This document shows, piece after piece, positions 17,062 to 23,082 of a stretch of DNA of 25,687 nucleotides. Positions within the stretch are counted from its first letter, which is position 1. Each line of letters begins with the position of its first letter. The translations under genes were made by a program, and so were the position numbers. The notes beneath the pieces are model-generated. The model was not told the DNA's origin. It was given only the letters and a program-made list of their open reading frames with translations, and made no database searches. This stretch comes from a virus, in IMG/VR virus record IMGVR_UViG_3300027971_000200, positions 1 to 25,687 of that record; one strand, written 5' to 3'.

Positions 17062-18918
17062 ATGCCATTAATAAATCAAGTACAATTATCCAATACGTTT
17101 AACGAATTTAGATCAACCGTTAACGATATTAGTAATACTATTAATTCCGGATTAAGCATTACCGGTGATGCTGGTTCGGACTCAATTTCGGTTGGTGGTG
17201 AGACACTAGCGATTAATGGTGCTTCTGGAATTACTACTGTCGTTGCAAATAATACTCTTTCCATATCTAGCGTAGCTTCTGCTAATATGCAATATCAAAG
17301 AATGGTATTGACTACTGGAGAAGATGCAACTGCGGCTAATACTGGAAGTTTACGCACATATGGTGGCGCCGCAATCGGCAAAAAACTTTGGGTTGGCTCT
17401 GACATATATGTTGGTGGTAATGCGAATATTGCAGGTGACCTTGTTATTCAAGGTAACACCATCACATTTAATACACAAACATTTGAAGTTGAAGATAGCA
17501 TTTTATATTTAAATGCAAACAATACTGTAACAAATCCTGACGTTGGTATTGCCGCAAACTATGTCGATGGTGGATATAAACACACAGGTATTTTCAGAGA
17601 TGCATCTGAAGACCGTTGGGTAGTATTTAAGGGCTATACTCCAGAGCCAACAAACCCGATTGATGTGTCTAACGCATCATTTCAATATTCAGATTTTAGG
17701 GCGGCTACCTATTATGGTAACGCAGTTTTTACAACATCTCAAGTAGTAACAGAAACAGCAACCACAATTATTGCTAATAATAATATATCAGTCGGAACAA
17801 CTTTAACACCAGCAGGAACTGGAGTCAAATTTGTTGTTTTAGATGCATCTGGTGGTGGTTCACAATGGGCTTATGGAACTACGGGCGGAGGTAGAGTTTC
17901 TGCCGTTGCTAACGGTGGATTATCTTGGAGTACATATACCGGTGCAGTAGGCTCAGAAAGTTATACACAAAGAATAACATTAGCAAATACAGGTAACTTA
18001 TTGCTTGGTACTAGTACTGATGTTCTTTTATCAAAATTACAAATTGTAATGACTAGTGATAGTGCTAACACATCATCTGGTTTACGCATACAAACTCCTA
18101 ATAGTGCTGGTGGAAATACATTCCCAACATATGGTGCATATATTGATGCGGCTCAATCGTATGCAAGTTCAAACTCCGTATATGGTGTATATTCTCTAGC
18201 CGCTTCTTCTGGTGGACTAAATTCATTTGGTCTATATGGTAGCGCAACCGCAAATACAAATGGTGCTGGTTCGATTGGTGTTTATGCTGAAGCAACTGGT
18301 GCATCTGGTGCAACTGGTGCATTACCATCATATACTGGAAAATTACTTTCTGGTACAAGTATGCCAATTGGTATATACAGTAAAGTAATTTCAACTGGTT
18401 CGACAAATACTAATACTACAGCGGCTGGTTTATTTGAAAATACTTCAGCATACGGTGCAACAGCTTATGGTATTTACATTAAGACTGCATCAGGTCCCAC
18501 TACAGTAACTCCATTGACAATTAATCATGCAGGAACAGTTGTTGCTTCAGTTGATTCTTCTGGTTATTGGGTTGGTAACATCAAAGCAAAAATTCAACGT
18601 GACTCTGTTACAGCAGTTTCTGCTAGTGGTGCAACTAACATCGATTTGTCATTAGGCAACTCATTTGTAGTAACAATGAATGCAACAGCAACATTCTCAT
18701 TCATTAATCCTCCATCAGGAACTGATATTACATCATTTACTATTATCACAGTTAACTCTGCTGGTGGATATGCAATTTCATGGCCAGCATCAGTAACTTG
18801 GTCAGGTGGTGCGACTCCAACAAGAACAACAACATCAGCAAAACAGGACGCATACACCTTTTTTACTAGAGATGGTGGTACTACATACGTAGGATCACTT
18901 GCAATCACCAACTATTAA
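17062..18918 (+). CDS. Tail fibre-like virion protein
   Basis: A 618-aa Gly/Ala/Thr/Asn-rich beta protein with no catalytic motif. The N-terminus 'VQLSNTFNEFRSTVNDISN' (7-25) is like the attachment helix of aquatic phage fibre proteins. Residues about 115-160 have alternating short strands ('LWVGSDIYVGGNANIAGDLV', then 'IQGNTITFNTQTFEVEDSIL') leading to a 'DVGIAANYVDGG...GIFRD...DRWVVFKG' domain seen in cyanophage structural proteins. The middle is low-complexity shaft ('YGAYIDAAQSYASSNSVYGV'). The C-terminal about 95 residues ('TNIDLSLGNSFVVTMNATAT' to 'YTFFTRDGGTTYVGSLA') form a domain found at the ends of many phage tail fibres. It has no obvious intramolecular chaperone. Together with the next gene it probably makes the host-recognition fibre. 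Confidence 0.75.
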   Translation: MPLINQVQLSNTFNEFRSTVNDISNTINSGLSITGDAGSDSISVGGETLAINGASGITTVVANNTLSISSVASANMQYQRMVLTTGEDATAANTGSLRTYGGAAIGKKLWVGSDIYVGGNANIAGDLVIQGNTITFNTQTFEVEDSILYLNANNTVTNPDVGIAANYVDGGYKHTGIFRDASEDRWVVFKGYTPEPTNPIDVSNASFQYSDFRAATYYGNAVFTTSQVVTETATTIIANNNISVGTTLTPAGTGVKFVVLDASGGGSQWAYGTTGGGRVSAVANGGLSWSTYTGAVGSESYTQRITLANTGNLLLGTSTDVLLSKLQIVMTSDSANTSSGLRIQTPNSAGGNTFPTYGAYIDAAQSYASSNSVYGVYSLAASSGGLNSFGLYGSATANTNGAGSIGVYAEATGASGATGALPSYTGKLLSGTSMPIGIYSKVISTGSTNTNTTAAGLFENTSAYGATAYGIYIKTASGPTTVTPLTINHAGTVVASVDSSGYWVGNIKAKIQRDSVTAVSASGATNIDLSLGNSFVVTMNATATFSFINPPSGTDITSFTIITVNSAGGYAISWPASVTWSGGATPTRTTTSAKQDAYTFFTRDGGTTYVGSLAITNY

Positions 18919-18933: not shown

Positions 18934-19623
18934 ATGAAAATATCTGGACTATTAAGAAGAGAAAGAACAACCGCAATTGTCAAACAGACAGTTACGTTTA
19001 ATGCGCCAGGGACTTATTACCCCCCATACGGAAAAACTAACTTTTCGTTACAGGGAAAATCTACCGATGGTAATCCTACAACATCGAATCCGACAACATC
19101 GAATCCAACTATACCAGGAAATCCAATACCAGGAAATCCCGTTCCCGTGTCTGGATATTTTGTATTTCAAGGTTTCACTTTTGTTACTACATATCAAATA
19201 GTTACTGATTGGACTGCATCTTCATTTCCTGGCCGAGGCGGTTTTTATAATAGTTTTTGGTCGGGATCTCCTGAAGGATACAATAATTATTATACTAGTG
19301 ATGGTAGTGGTACATGGAGTATGGTAAACTATTGGACTGGAGGAGTACAGAATGAGCAAGTTGCATACGGATATTATGTTCCTGGTTACACATACTATAA
19401 TCCCACAAACTACAATCCAACAACACCAGGAAATACTGTTCCAGGAAATACTATTCCAGGAAATGCGGGTCCATCATATACTGTGCTAGGCGTTCCATTG
19501 CCAGGCGGCGCTGGTGCCTCTGTTGCTCCTGTTGTGAATGCGCCAGTTAGCATTGATTATTCCACAAGTGGTGTATCAATTTCCGTTCCTCCAGGAGGAT
19601 ATGTTTCGATTATTAATGCATGA
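18934..19623 (+). CDS. Pro/Gly/Asn-rich adhesin-like tail tip protein
   Basis: A 229-aa secreted-looking but signal-less protein typical of receptor-binding tips of aquatic T4-like phages. After a basic start (MKISGLLRRER) comes 'VTFNAPGTYYPPYGKTNFSL' (20-39). Then follows a repeat array (47-71: NPTTS, NPTTS, NPTIP, GNPIP, GNPVP), a Trp/Tyr/Gly-rich core (72-150), a second array (156-180, ending 'TVPGNTIPGNAGP'), and a C-terminal 'LGVPLPGGAGASVAPVV' with 'VSISVPPGGYVSI'. There are ten X-Pro-Gly triplets. The arrays are 15-bp tandem DNA repeats, so length can vary by slippage. No Shine-Dalgarno precedes the ATG. It lies between a fibre gene and a prolyl-hydroxylase-type oxygenase. Function as adhesin is inferred from composition and context. 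Confidence 0.7.
   Translation: MKISGLLRRERTTAIVKQTVTFNAPGTYYPPYGKTNFSLQGKSTDGNPTTSNPTTSNPTIPGNPIPGNPVPVSGYFVFQGFTFVTTYQIVTDWTASSFPGRGGFYNSFWSGSPEGYNNYYTSDGSGTWSMVNYWTGGVQNEQVAYGYYVPGYTYYNPTNYNPTTPGNTVPGNTIPGNAGPSYTVLGVPLPGGAGASVAPVVNAPVSIDYSTSGVSISVPPGGYVSIINA
19072..19146 (+). repeat. Five 15-bp tandem units in the adhesin gene (array 1)
   Basis: Units at 19072, 19087, 19102, 19117 and 19132. The first two differ at one base (AATCCTACAACATCG and AATCCGACAACATCG). The last two begin GGAAATCC. They encode NPTTS, NPTTS, NPTIP, GNPIP and GNPVP. Whole-unit gain or loss keeps the frame. Confidence 0.85.
19429..19473 (+). repeat. Three 15-bp tandem units in the adhesin gene (array 2)
   Basis: GGAAATACTGTTCCA (19429-19443), GGAAATACTATTCCA (19444-19458) and GGAAATGCGGGTCCA (19459-19473) encode GNTVP, GNTIP and GNAGP. 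The unit shares its GGAAAT start and 15-bp length with the end of array 1. Confidence 0.85.
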
Positions 19624-19629
19624 TAAATA
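19622..19629 (+). promoter_or_regulatory. Near-consensus late promoter motif GATAAATA
   Basis: Matches TATAAATA at 7 of 8 positions and lies in the 46-base gap after the adhesin gene. It would give a leader of about 34 nt before the oxygenase gene, which has its own good ribosome site (AAAAGGAA ending at 19663). One mismatch and overlap with the upstream stop region make this tentative. Confidence 0.35.
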
Positions 19630-19669
19630 AATTGCATTTGAGTTTTATTATTTAAAAAAGGAATTAATT

Positions 19670-20299
19670 ATGAGTTATATTTTACAAAACTTTGGTCCTA
19701 GAGCCGTTGCGGCAATGACAATACATGATATACATCAGCCATTAGAGGATTTAGTTATGTGGGCGGACGGATTTTCTGAAGAAGAAGTTCGTGACATTAT
19801 AAGTTTAGGTGAAATGGCAGAATTTCAAAAAGGTGTTGTTGGATCCGACACTATGCCAACAACAGACCTTGATGTTAGAGATACCGATATTTCTTGGGTC
19901 AACCCATCCGAACAATCAGAATGGTTATATCAAAGACTTCAACACATCGTATCTAAAATCAACCACGACAAATATCAATTTGATTTAGATACACTTGATG
20001 TTCTTCAATATGCAAAATATAAAGAAAATCAGTTTTACAATTGGCATACGGATGCCGGACCATCACTATCATTTCATAGAAAACTATCTATAGTTGTGGG
20101 ATTGAGTGATCCTAGTGAGTATGAAGGTGGAGAATTTGTCATTAATATTGGCGGCAATCCAGACACCGCACAAACTTTTAAATTAAAACCTGGACATATA
20201 ATCGTTTTTCCATCTTGGATTCCACATAAAGTAAATCCTGTAACATCCGGAGAAAGAACTAGTCTAGTTACTTGGGTTAGGGGACCAAAATTTAAATGA
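19670..20299 (+). CDS. 2-oxoglutarate/Fe(II) oxygenase, prolyl-hydroxylase type
   Basis: A 209-aa enzyme of the double-stranded beta-helix superfamily. Fe(II) ligands are visible as HTD (His126, Asp128) and the distal His186 in 'WIPHKVNP'. Arg196 in 'GERTSL' is the expected 2-oxoglutarate carboxylate ligand. Flanking landmarks are 'YNWHTDAG' (123-130), 'LSIVVGLSDPSEYEGGEFVI' (139-158) and 'KPGHIIVFPSW' (173-183), which place it with P4H/PiuC-like oxygenases. The reaction would couple oxidative decarboxylation of 2-oxoglutarate to hydroxylation of a substrate, probably a protein side chain. Similar genes occur in many T4-like cyanophages. AAGGAA lies 6-7 nt before the ATG. The stop overlaps the next gene (ATGA at 20296-20299). 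Position directly after the X-Pro-Gly-rich adhesin makes that protein a candidate substrate. Confidence 0.92.
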   Translation: MSYILQNFGPRAVAAMTIHDIHQPLEDLVMWADGFSEEEVRDIISLGEMAEFQKGVVGSDTMPTTDLDVRDTDISWVNPSEQSEWLYQRLQHIVSKINHDKYQFDLDTLDVLQYAKYKENQFYNWHTDAGPSLSFHRKLSIVVGLSDPSEYEGGEFVINIGGNPDTAQTFKLKPGHIIVFPSWIPHKVNPVTSGERTSLVTWVRGPKFK

Positions 20300-21024
20300 G
20301 TTTGATTTCAATATTTAAAACTCCAGTAATAGAGTTTTTATGTGATGAAAGATATTTCAACGTAATACCAGAACCCAAACCATCAGCAAAAAATATTCCT
20401 GAATGGTATAAAAAAATTCCTACACACTCTAAAAGCGACCGAGATAGTAGAGGTGGTCCTGTTGCAACTGCGAAAAAATGTATTCCTATGATTGATGCTA
20501 TGTCAATTGGGTATACAATACCTTTCTTCATAGATCAATATGTACATGTAGATAGAAACTGTAATGTTGATCCGGGACCAACACTGGCAGACTTTGGTGC
20601 GGGAATAGAGTTTCATAATAAGGTGCAAGTCTCTGATAAAGATGGCAACGCACCATTTAAATCTAGCCCAATAAAATTTGTAAATCCTTGGGTAGTTAAA
20701 ACTTCTCCAGGATGGTCAACTCTTTTTATACCGTGTTTAAATACTCTTGAAGATAGATTTCAATTATTGGGAGGATTAGTAGATACTGATAGATATGTTA
20801 AACAAGTTAATTTTCCCGGAAGATGGATTATGCCATTCTATGAAGGATATATTCGTGCCGGCACTCCAATGATGACTGCTATTCCAATTAAACGTAGTAT
20901 GCTTGATATTAAACATAATGTGAGAGCATTAAATGATGATGAACAAAAATATATTGACATTTTAACAAAAAGTCAACTTACCCGTGAAAGCGTTTATGAA
21001 AAAGAATTGAGGGAAAAAAGATAA
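20296..21024 (+). CDS. Uncharacterised phage protein, tandem paralogue A
   Basis: A 242-aa soluble protein of a family I recall in aquatic phages and bacteria without known function (possibly filed as DUF6065; not certain). Landmarks: 'NIPEWYKKIP' (33-42), 'KKCIPMIDAMSIGYTIPFFI' (60-79), 'VNPWVVKTSPGWSTLFIPC' (129-147), 'GLVDTDRYV' and 'RAGTPMMTAIPIKRS'. The next gene has the same landmarks in the same order, so the two are paralogues. It starts in the stop of the oxygenase gene and ends one base before its paralogue starts, so all three are probably made together. The conserved Trp, Pro, Gly and Asp residues suggest a folded enzyme or binding domain, but no known catalytic motif is recognised. 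Confidence 0.8.
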   Translation: MSLISIFKTPVIEFLCDERYFNVIPEPKPSAKNIPEWYKKIPTHSKSDRDSRGGPVATAKKCIPMIDAMSIGYTIPFFIDQYVHVDRNCNVDPGPTLADFGAGIEFHNKVQVSDKDGNAPFKSSPIKFVNPWVVKTSPGWSTLFIPCLNTLEDRFQLLGGLVDTDRYVKQVNFPGRWIMPFYEGYIRAGTPMMTAIPIKRSMLDIKHNVRALNDDEQKYIDILTKSQLTRESVYEKELREKR

Positions 21025-21783
21025 ATGTTTGATAAAATTCATAATTATATAAGCGAAATGATGACAGATAAACCAGCAATTAGGTTTTCGTCTGTTGCTA
21101 CACACCCATACATTAGTGACATAACTGATATTAAATTGGCAAAAGATATAATCCCAGATTTTGTTAAAGCACAAAGGGGTAGACCAGCAAATGAAAAATT
21201 TTTAAATTGTCCAGGAATGGCTGATTTTCTACGAGCAGGTTATATTATTCCTGCGTGGACCGATTTTGAAATTAAATCAAATCGGTCAGGAACACATATT
21301 AAAGCACTTACTGGTTTTGAGGCTGGACAAATTTCAGGTTTAAATTATAAATTGGTCGATGGTTTAGTTCCATTAAATAATGTTCCTGGTGCAGTAAATA
21401 AAATTCCATGTCCTTGGGCAGTTTTTACTAAAAAAGGATGGTCTGCATATGTAATGCCGGCATATTATCACAGTCCATTTTTAAAAGATTTGTATATGTA
21501 TCCTGGAGTTATAGATCATGATAACTTTTGTCAAATGAATTGGCTTTTTACTGCAATGCATGAGTGTCATATTCATATTCCAGCTGGAACTCCAATATTG
21601 CAAATAATTCCTTTTAAAAGAGAAATTATTAAAGGAAAATCAATGAAGGGTACGGAATACGATATAGATTTTCATAAATATGGGTACCCTACCAAATGGC
21701 GTTCTGCATACAGACGGCTATTTCATAAGAAAAAAGAATTTAAACTGGAGACACAAAATGACAACATTTTATTGCGTAGATAA
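21025..21783 (+). CDS. Uncharacterised phage protein, tandem paralogue B
   Basis: A 252-aa paralogue of the preceding product. Shared landmarks: 'CPGMADFLRAGYIIPAWTD' (about 60-78, versus 'CIPMIDAMSIGYTIPFFID'), 'PCPWAVFTKKGWSAYVMPA' (versus 'VNPWVVKTSPGWSTLFIPC'), 'GVIDHDNF' (versus 'GLVDTDRY') and 'PAGTPILQIIPFKRE' (versus 'RAGTPMMTAIPIKRS'). It has an extra 'HECHIHIP' segment with three closely spaced His residues, and a basic tail ('YRRLFHKKKEFK'). The ATG follows the previous stop immediately (TAAATG), and the last 26 bases overlap the next gene. By-eye identity is low, so the duplication is old or the second copy came from elsewhere. Function unknown. Confidence 0.8.
   Translation: MFDKIHNYISEMMTDKPAIRFSSVATHPYISDITDIKLAKDIIPDFVKAQRGRPANEKFLNCPGMADFLRAGYIIPAWTDFEIKSNRSGTHIKALTGFEAGQISGLNYKLVDGLVPLNNVPGAVNKIPCPWAVFTKKGWSAYVMPAYYHSPFLKDLYMYPGVIDHDNFCQMNWLFTAMHECHIHIPAGTPILQIIPFKREIIKGKSMKGTEYDIDFHKYGYPTKWRSAYRRLFHKKKEFKLETQNDNILLRR
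21747..21750 (+). promoter_or_regulatory. Ribosome binding site GGAG fixing the start at 21758
   Basis: GGAG ends 7 bases before ATG 21758. The longer in-frame ATG at 21680 has no such site and would add 26 residues overlapping deep into the upstream gene, so 21758 is preferred. Confidence 0.75.
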
Positions 21784-22237
21784 AGATGCAAAAGTAGTAT
21801 TATCATCAGGACCATTACCTTCTACATGGGGAACTATTTCAGGTGTAGACGTATTGGATGATACGCATAGGAAAGATATGTCTTGGGCTGGATATCCAAC
21901 TCATGCATTTTTGACTCAATCTGAGTCACTTGCATTAGGATTCACACAAGATCAATTAGATACAGCTAATGCATCATACAGAAAATCAATTGTTCCAAAC
22001 GCAATTACTATGCGCCAGGCACGATTAACATTTTTAAGTGCAGGAATTTTAACTAGACTAGAATCCGCTATCAATAGCATTGAAGAAGAGAATGCAAGAA
22101 GTGTCGCACAAATTGAATGGCAGTTTGGTGAGTTTGTTTATAGAAACAATTCTCCAATCACATCGTTAATTGGTAATGTACTTGGATTAACAGAGTTACA
22201 AATTGATGATCTTTTCATTGAAGGTATGAATCGATAA
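21758..22237 (+). CDS. Phage protein with fibre-associated 'MRQARL' C-terminal domain
   Basis: A 159-aa protein from the preferred start. The N-terminal half begins MTTFYCVDKDAKVVLSSG and has no recognised match. The C-terminal about 75 residues, from 'TMRQARLTFLSAGILTRLES' through 'QIEWQFGEFVYRNNSPI' to 'LTELQIDDLFIEG', form a helical domain that recurs in tail-fibre-associated and fibre-assembly proteins of many phages, where the common form is 'MRQARL.LL.AGLL...' followed by 'IEWEYA..V.R.SP'. This suggests a fibre assembly or fibre cap role for the upstream fibre and adhesin genes. The gene overlaps its upstream neighbour by 26 bases and is followed after 19 bases by a strong terminator, so it ends the accessory cassette. 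Confidence 0.75.
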   Translation: MTTFYCVDKDAKVVLSSGPLPSTWGTISGVDVLDDTHRKDMSWAGYPTHAFLTQSESLALGFTQDQLDTANASYRKSIVPNAITMRQARLTFLSAGILTRLESAINSIEEENARSVAQIEWQFGEFVYRNNSPITSLIGNVLGLTELQIDDLFIEGMNR

Positions 22238-22256: not shown

Positions 22257-22282
22257 AAAACCCCCTTTATGGGGGTTTTTTT
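22257..22282 (+). terminator. Intrinsic transcription terminator
   Basis: AAAACCCCC (22257-22265), loop TTTAT, then GGGGGTTTT, a perfect 9-bp stem with five consecutive G-C pairs, followed by a T-run to 22282. It separates the fibre/accessory cassette from the neck and packaging genes and is followed 15 bases later by a late-promoter motif. Confidence 0.95.
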
Positions 22283-22332: not shown

Positions 22333-23082
22333 ATGAGTATAAGTAAACCAGCATCCAGAGAAGAATTTAAAGAATTCTGTCTCAGAAGACTTGGTGCACC
22401 TCTGTTGGAAATTAACGTAGCAGATGAACAAGTTGAAGACTGTATCGAAATGGCATTCTCATATTACTATGACTATCACTACGATGCAACAGAAAAAGTA
22501 TATCTAGCACATCAAGTCACACAAACAGACATTGACAACAAGTATCTTTCAATAGATGATTCTGTCATTGGCGTAATCAATATTCTTCCTATCGGAAACA
22601 GCTATTCCACAAACAATTTATTTAATCTAAGATATCAGATTGCATTGAATGATTTGTTTGCGTTCAATACTGGTCCATTTGCACCATACTACATGGCATT
22701 GCAAAACGTTGCTTTAGCAGAAGAGTTATTTGTTGGTAAACAAGCAATTCGTTTTCAACGTCACTCAAATAAACTTTTTGTTGATATTGCTTGGGGTGAA
22801 AAAGTTGTTTTAGGCGAATACATTATTGTTGAAGCGTATCAAAAAATTGATCCAGACACATACACAGATATGTACAATGACAGATGGCTTCAAAAATATT
22901 GCACAGCTTTAATTAAAAAGCAATGGGGCGAAAATTTGAAAAAATTCGAAGGCATTTCTATGCCTGGAGGAGTTTCTTTTAACGGGCAGAAAATTTGGGA
23001 TGAAGCTATAGATGAAATTCAGGGTATGGAATCAGAAATGATTAGTTCATACTCATTGCCTGTTACTGATATGCTAGGCTAA
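22333..23082 (+). CDS. 13: Neck protein gp13
   Basis: A 249-aa neck protein; T4 gp13 is 309 aa. The N-terminus 'REEFKEFCLRRLGAPLLEIN' (9-28) followed by 'VADEQVEDCIEMAFSYYYDY' (29-48) is the gp13 signature of exo-T4 phages (LGAP-x-EIN-V-x-DxQ-x-EDxxxxA). The C-terminus has 'YTDMYNDRWLQKYCTALIKK' and 'QWGENLKKFEGISMPGGVSF'. gp13 binds the portal vertex after packaging and, with gp14, closes the head and forms the connector to which the tail attaches. It opens the neck-packaging operon behind a terminator and late promoter. Gene 14 begins 3 bases after its stop. Confidence 0.92.
   Translation: MSISKPASREEFKEFCLRRLGAPLLEINVADEQVEDCIEMAFSYYYDYHYDATEKVYLAHQVTQTDIDNKYLSIDDSVIGVINILPIGNSYSTNNLFNLRYQIALNDLFAFNTGPFAPYYMALQNVALAEELFVGKQAIRFQRHSNKLFVDIAWGEKVVLGEYIIVEAYQKIDPDTYTDMYNDRWLQKYCTALIKKQWGENLKKFEGISMPGGVSFNGQKIWDEAIDEIQGMESEMISSYSLPVTDMLG

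Follow-up and report, generated by a model that had tools for sequence, protein, structure and literature searches.

A conserved adhesin-oxygenase gene cassette behind the distal tail fibre gene of a T4-like phage, with a proposed role in adhesin modification

Background

T-even phages possess the gene order gp37-gp38, and we know of no modification enzymes encoded behind gp38. Aquatic phages very commonly encode 2-oxoglutarate (2OG) oxygenases, one cyanophage having 24 of them (PMC9602691), and roles in DNA repair or in the control of 2OG levels have been proposed, without test, for the cyanophage enzymes (PMC2984593, PMC3037559, PMC9602691). Among eukaryotes, Skp1 of Dictyostelium undergoes prolyl hydroxylation by PhyA, after which the cytoplasmic GlcNAc-transferase Gnt1 acts upon the hydroxyproline (PMC3515798, PMC8724618). 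GT60 is a group of protist polypeptide GlcNAc-transferases, and its characterised enzymes comprise the mucin-type pp-alpha-GlcNAcTs and the Skp1 hydroxyproline enzyme (PMC8724618). A literature search for hydroxyproline glycosylation in phages returned no report, which is weak evidence of absence.

Here we describe a locus in which the gene for an adhesin-like protein is directly followed by that for a 2OG/Fe(II) oxygenase. "The window" denotes the whole stretch analysed, the entire 25,687-bp IMG/VR record IMGVR_UViG_3300027971_000200.

Results and discussion

Gene layout

The 25.7-kb fragment is part of a T4-like myovirus and encodes a gp8-type baseplate protein, a large fibre block and, at 22333, a neck protein, for which Stenotrophomonas phage DLP_6, Sinorhizobium phage phiN3 and Caulobacter phage Cr30 are the nearest isolates. 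A nucleotide-level search of phage records with the window gave no match. The features of interest are as follows.

17062..18918, plus strand: distal tail-fibre-type protein, 618 amino acids (tail fibre matches phrog_9017, 4e-11, and phrog_7760, 5e-11)
18934..19623, plus strand: adhesin-like protein, 229 amino acids, with conserved head and tail and PGN repeats; no significant family match
19623..19629, plus strand: ATAAATA, resembling a T4-type late promoter (pattern match only), in the interval ahead of the oxygenase gene
19670..20299, plus strand: 2OG/Fe(II) oxygenase, 209 amino acids, PKHD/P4H-like (PF13640), proposed adhesin hydroxylase
20296..21024, plus strand: DUF6065 protein A, 242 amino acids, apparently of dUTPase-like fold (phrog_7084, 1e-42)
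21025..21783, plus strand: DUF6065 protein B, 252 amino acids, paralogue of A (phrog_7084, 2e-25)
21758..22237, plus strand: tail-fibre-assembly-like protein, 159 amino acids, start as in the L082 relative (PHROG matches of its counterparts)
22257..22279, no strand assigned: terminator-like hairpin (consensus match only) at the end of the gene block before the neck gene (22333)

The adhesin and oxygenase genes lie on the same strand, 46 bp apart. At a place comparable to that of the tail-fibre-assembly-like gene, contigs L088 and L089 carry genes matching tail fibre assembly PHROGs. The motif ATAAATA occurs seven times on the plus strand of the window, with four of the copies falling within its 362 intergenic bases; these four (4011, 9317, 19623 and 22299) each precede a gene and are consistent with T4-type late promoters.

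In the cassettes described below, the C-terminal tip domain of the fibre protein recurs directly upstream of the adhesin. Of 38 cassettes, 35 encode a related domain no more than three genes ahead of the adhesin; tandem adhesins, contig ends or inserted genes account for the three exceptions. It is this position behind the distal fibre that supports, short of proof, the assignment of the adhesin as a putative tail-tip protein and virion component.

The adhesin-like protein

The first-pass annotation had counted ten X-Pro-Gly triplets in the adhesin (APG, IPG twice, FPG, VPG twice, TPG, IPG, LPG and PPG), and the recount agrees with it. Shuffling of the protein gave a mean of 3.5 such triplets, with ten or more in 22 of 20,000 shuffles. 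Five of the ten are PGN at five-residue spacing (residues 60/65 and 164/169/174), and the PG density is 4.4 per 100 amino acids versus at most 1.2 in all other genes of the window. From the N-terminus, the protein consists of a head (TFNAPGTYYPPYGK), PGN repeats, a variable aromatic centre, further PGN repeats and the tail LGVPLPGG...VPPGGYV. The family shares this plan across cassettes, with the head TFNAPGNY.IPYGK and the tail LGVTFPGG...VPPGGYV enclosing low-complexity repeats. A collagen-like Gly-X-Y fibre was considered and ruled out, the PGN units of the window having a period of five and no triplet periodicity.

The adhesin gave no significant match to Pfam, PHROG or NCBIfam, none that was usable in a PDB sequence search, and none by tblastn against 50,697 phage records. 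Structure prediction from ten sequences was unusable (pLDDT 31).

Among adhesins of the cassettes anchored on DUF6065, the median PG density is 4.0 per 100 amino acids versus 0.29 in the 521 other genes there. Few motifs are enriched as widely as PG and PG[N/T] (19 and 21 of the 27 representatives, respectively), and 20 of the 27 show enrichment of [YF]N[PAIVT]. The sample anchored on the glycosyltransferase (see below) includes 21 adhesins out of 73 with less than one PG per 100 amino acids and the oxygenase still present. Repeats nearly free of PG take forms such as AYPIANQPEASRP or NYPYTPASYNTV and, in the L158/L176 branch, NAQNPASYNAQN. Proline makes up 12.5% of the pooled repeat regions and at least 5.5% of every one; asparagine, the commonest residue (17.7%), is likewise constant, and lysine amounts to 0.3%.

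Several loci depart from the simple arrangement. At L084:9296-12093 there are four tandem adhesin paralogues with conserved ends, hypervariable aromatic-rich centres and a single oxygenase gene behind them, which looks like a receptor-binding repertoire. An adhesin-family gene at L218:1790-4006 ends in a domain resembling the Hint/intein type (CFVAGTLVTMSDLTTKAIEEI) and is directly followed by a second adhesin piece; L220, L223 and L224 possibly carry similarly split adhesins. Distant, very PG-rich adhesin relatives without an adjoining oxygenase gene occur on the large phage contigs L089 and L090. The L089 genome has one oxygenase gene about 130 kb away from the adhesin relative, and a search of the 129-kb L090 record for the oxygenase found none.

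The oxygenase

The next gene had been read as encoding an intact oxygenase with the ligands H126, D128, H186 and R196, and this holds. The product matches PF13640 at 60.6 bits (cut-off 27) and phrog_61 at 3e-45; H126, D128 and R196 do not vary among 81 distinct relatives, 77 of which also have H186. The sequence places the protein in the 2OG-Fe(II) oxygenase superfamily, with a catalytic site that is predicted to be intact.

Compared by sequence with solved structures, the oxygenase is nearest to PKHD/PiuC proteins (2e-9), a viral prolyl 4-hydroxylase (P4H) following at 0.006. The best NCBIfam model is likewise the PiuC/YbiX PKHD (73.5 bits versus an equivalog cut-off of 143), and all equivalog cut-offs of NCBIfam were missed. 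Collagen P4Hs have lysine as the co-substrate residue ten positions beyond the distal histidine. The 2OG ligand at that position is arginine in 81 of 81 relatives, which speaks against identity with the collagen-type enzymes. Because of the PKHD/PiuC-like sequence and this arginine, we refer to the protein as a P4H/PKHD-like adhesin-linked oxygenase and not as a collagen prolyl hydroxylase. In a phylogenetic tree the cassette oxygenases form one clade (local support 0.835), separate from 57 other viral oxygenases.

Clusters of 2OG oxygenase genes were also seen in pelagiphages (L099:6880-11965 and L100:3897-10868), where they adjoin neck genes. The Mosig cluster includes a heme oxygenase and a bilin reductase, and that of HTVC008M a tryptophan halogenase.

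Conservation of the gene pair

Contigs L082 and L083 have the gene order of the window (adhesin 83%, oxygenase 89%), and in L085-L088 the pair is retained at 35-49% adhesin identity. DUF6065 protein A was chosen as bait in IMG/VR, so that the sample is biased by neither the adhesin nor the oxygenase; it yielded 80 loci and 45 distinct oxygenases, 42 of these with usable upstream sequence. Almost all 80 loci show the order adhesin-oxygenase-DUF6065-DUF6065 in one direction. The same adhesin family lies upstream in 42 of the 42 distinct cassettes with upstream sequence, a count of distinct proteins and not of independent origins, since many contigs are near-duplicates. The L155, L158 and L176 types have one or two genes separating adhesin from oxygenase. 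For viral 2OG oxygenases outside the cassette, the corresponding figure is 0 of 80 distinct proteins with this adhesin within three genes, and 1 of 80 has any PG-rich neighbour.

An enzyme-independent scan with the DNA motif of the adhesin head agrees, the oxygenase gene being located behind the adhesin wherever the contig sequence suffices; all three baits used in this work are members of the same cassette. In contigs L218, L220 and L223-L225 the adhesin, oxygenase and GT60 genes directly adjoin one another in this order, and a second set of adhesin-oxygenase-DUF6065 comes after them, such that adhesin and oxygenase are duplicated together. The whole cassette was found in none of the isolated phages, and in prokaryote genomes on one 4.4-kb contig only (L204, from a Chitinophagaceae MAG), which is probably viral.

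The pairing of adhesin and oxygenase is not due to chance; it is evolutionarily conserved and part of a larger phage cassette comprising a distal tail-fibre gene, the adhesin, the oxygenase, two DUF6065 proteins and often a GT60 glycosyltransferase. The first-pass annotation had proposed a two-gene unit, of which the pair stands, the rest of the cassette having been missed. It had also named frequent oxygenases in phages without a PG-rich protein as evidence against its proposal; such occurrence holds for the wide family but not for this clade.

Glycosyltransferase and other modifying enzymes

In 24 of 45 distinct cassettes the gene order continues with a protein of 310-360 amino acids, and all six of those tested match PF11397, 'Glycosyltransferase (GlcNAc)', at 1e-21 to 3e-34 (77.7 to 119.3 bits, cut-off 21). 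Gnt1 is also a member of PF11397. A D-x-H motif for metal and nucleotide-sugar is typical of the GT60/PF11397 family, and an alignment of ten cassette proteins displays an invariant D-S-H. Sequence comparison with the PDB gave no solved relative, and among isolated phages a match, a weak one, was found only in Xanthomonas phage XacN1.

Used as bait, the glycosyltransferase gave 51 distinct proteins, 45 of them with at least 2.8 kb of upstream sequence. The cassette oxygenase is encoded at most four genes upstream in 45 of 45, and the adhesin was recognised by HMM in 44 and by eye in the remaining one (L214). No PF11397 gene adjoins the cassette in the window or its branch; downstream in the 25.7-kb fragment are the tail-fibre-assembly-like gene and then the neck gene. 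The suggestion that the adhesin may be further glycosylated thus gains support in those relatives with an adjoining GT60-family gene, but not beside the cassette of the window. The phage of L193 has a PF11397 gene about 30 kb from its cassette.

The L156/L176 branch contains a carbohydrate-type sulfotransferase (PF03567, above cut-off) between adhesin and oxygenase. A protein of about 250 amino acids is paired with the sulfotransferase at this place (L158:5902-7373, L176:1111-2549 and L156:5964-7392). Behind freshwater cassettes (L115:7109-9068, L119 and L143) come a desaturase-like protein that scores under the Pfam cut-off and a further sulfotransferase (PF00685), which suggests a longer modification island.

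DUF6065 proteins

DUF6065 protein A scores 26.2 bits against PF19541, just under the cut-off of 26.6. Its AlphaFold model (pLDDT 77) has dUTPases among the fold matches listed (Z 7.5-8.4, rmsd 3-7), with no Foldseek E-value below 0.001, and the L107 counterpart of protein B matches the dUTPase family PF00692 weakly (6e-4 in one search, 0.043 in another). On the strength of this model the DUF6065 fold appears to be dUTPase-like. Isolates with DUF6065 are haloviruses, together with cyanophages carrying distant copies. A relative adjoins thymidylate synthase in HRTV-2, the one halovirus inspected, and another lies just after the ribonucleotide reductase genes of cyanophage S-RIM4. The occurrence of this uncharacterised family both here (window 20296-21783; L097; L194) and in haloarchaeal viruses provides a possible functional lead.

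Proposed function and alternatives

We consider it probable that the oxygenase is a dedicated hydroxylase of the adhesin, acting probably on proline, and that many relatives then glycosylate the adhesin. The conserved pair and the frequent presence of a sugar-adding enzyme suggest that the host-binding protein of these viruses is probably decorated after its synthesis. Late in infection, the oxygenase would hydroxylate the low-complexity repeats of the adhesin, with numerous prolines as the most likely sites. Relatives with a GT60-type glycosyltransferase would then transfer GlcNAc or another sugar onto the new hydroxyl, as occurs with Skp1 in Dictyostelium; since no glycosyltransferase gene adjoins the cassette in the fragment, hydroxylation alone is proposed for the phage of the window. 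The two DUF6065 proteins would be accessory, perhaps as an assembly factor or in a nucleotide-linked step. The choice of the adhesin as substrate, of proline as the modified residue and of the tail tip as the site of the product is our inference. Lysyl hydroxylation is unlikely because the repeats are almost without lysine and always contain proline. The very PG-rich adhesin relatives of L089 and L090, with no oxygenase gene adjoining, count against the proposed adhesin hydroxylation.

The enzyme had been portrayed as a collagen-type P4H that specifically recognises X-Pro-Gly. The enrichment and density of PG in the adhesins would suit such an enzyme, as would the period-five VPGNx and IPGNx units of the window, which resemble elastin-like VPGxG, a known P4H context. 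We nevertheless regard this specificity as unlikely: X-Pro-Gly is not a constant feature, because the nearly PG-free adhesins (21 of 73) keep their oxygenase, and the invariant arginine and the higher score of PiuC/PKHD over the viral P4H also argue against it. The target of the oxygenase within the adhesin might instead be a different residue, asparagine in the PGN and YN motifs being the likeliest, with the glycosyltransferase acting separately on serine or threonine. Asparagine is the commonest residue of the repeats and [YF]N[PAIVT] is widely enriched, and on composition asparagine could equally be the hydroxylated residue; GT60 moreover includes the mucin-type pp-alpha-GlcNAcTs (PMC8724618). 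This combined scheme seems to us doubtful to a similar degree, given the strict coupling of GT60 and oxygenase genes, adjacent in five contigs, for which an oxygenase that generates the acceptor hydroxyl is the better explanation.

Two further explanations would leave the adhesin aside. One is that oxygenase, dUTPase-like DUF6065 proteins and glycosyltransferase constitute a nucleotide- or DNA-modification module situated merely beside the adhesin gene. DNA-modification pathways with a TET-type oxygenase plus a glycosyltransferase do exist in phages, and both the apparent fold of DUF6065 and its location near thymidylate synthase or ribonucleotide reductase genes would fit; yet the oxygenase, a PKHD-type protein, always lies close to the adhesin and has been duplicated along with it (L218 type), and five contigs have adhesin-oxygenase-GT60 with no DUF6065 between, which makes such a module quite improbable. 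That the oxygenase is a general auxiliary gene, serving as a 2OG drain or in DNA repair and placed here incidentally, we hold to be very improbable. Cyanophages do carry many 2OG oxygenase genes of this kind, and in T4-like pelagiphages such genes are clustered between the tail fibre and neck genes, but the present clade is completely linked to the adhesin in our sample and stands apart from the other viral oxygenases in the tree.

If the oxygenase is indeed an adhesin hydroxylase, it would provide a protein target for a phage oxygenase, hydroxylation-dependent glycosylation of a receptor-binding protein would occur in bacterial viruses, and models of host range built from adhesin sequence alone would miss a chemical layer. 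For this clade the candidate substrate is obvious and an assay is at hand. A role outside eukaryotes is suggested for part of PF11397, and a dUTPase-fold family is placed in an unexpected setting. Perhaps, though we offer this more tentatively, hydroxyproline-linked glycoprotein adhesins are widespread in uncultured tailed phages, produced from a self-contained cassette by a hydroxylate-then-glycosylate pathway similar to those of Skp1 and extensins, in which the repeats diversify and the enzymes stay. The cassette would in that case comprise the adhesin, the hydroxylase, two dUTPase-fold proteins, the GT60 glycosyltransferase and sometimes a sulfotransferase.

Comparison with known systems

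By sequence, PiuC/YbiX is the closest characterised type, giving the best match among solved structures and NCBIfam models and sharing the arginine ten residues after the distal histidine; it differs in being a bacterial gene, and the score of the window oxygenase is about half its cut-off (73.5 vs 143 bits). The P4H of Chlorella virus PBCV-1, likewise a viral 2OG oxygenase, belongs to the wider P4H fold and is reported to act on proline-rich peptides (Eriksson et al. 1999 via PMC9301287). The window oxygenase matches it at only 0.006, and a substrate gene is not known as its neighbour in PBCV-1. In Mimivirus too, enzymes of the virus (the lysyl hydroxylase L230 and a collagen glucosyltransferase) are reported to hydroxylate and glycosylate collagen-type protein (PMC5802723, PMC9546862); the residue concerned there is collagen lysine, whereas the phage repeats are nearly lysine-free and not Gly-X-Y.

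Like gp38 of T4, the adhesin of the window is small, repeat-rich and encoded directly behind the distal fibre; unlike a gp38 homolog, it has no sequence relation to known adhesins that could be found in PHROG, Pfam or NCBIfam. The Skp1 pathway of Dictyostelium is eukaryotic and concerns one proline of a ubiquitin-ligase subunit, whereas here we have phage genes, a repetitive tail adhesin and a predicted chemistry. In both, a 2OG oxygenase is paired with a glycosyltransferase, the two glycosyltransferases sharing one Pfam family, and in Skp1 it is the hydroxylation that prepares the acceptor for GlcNAc.
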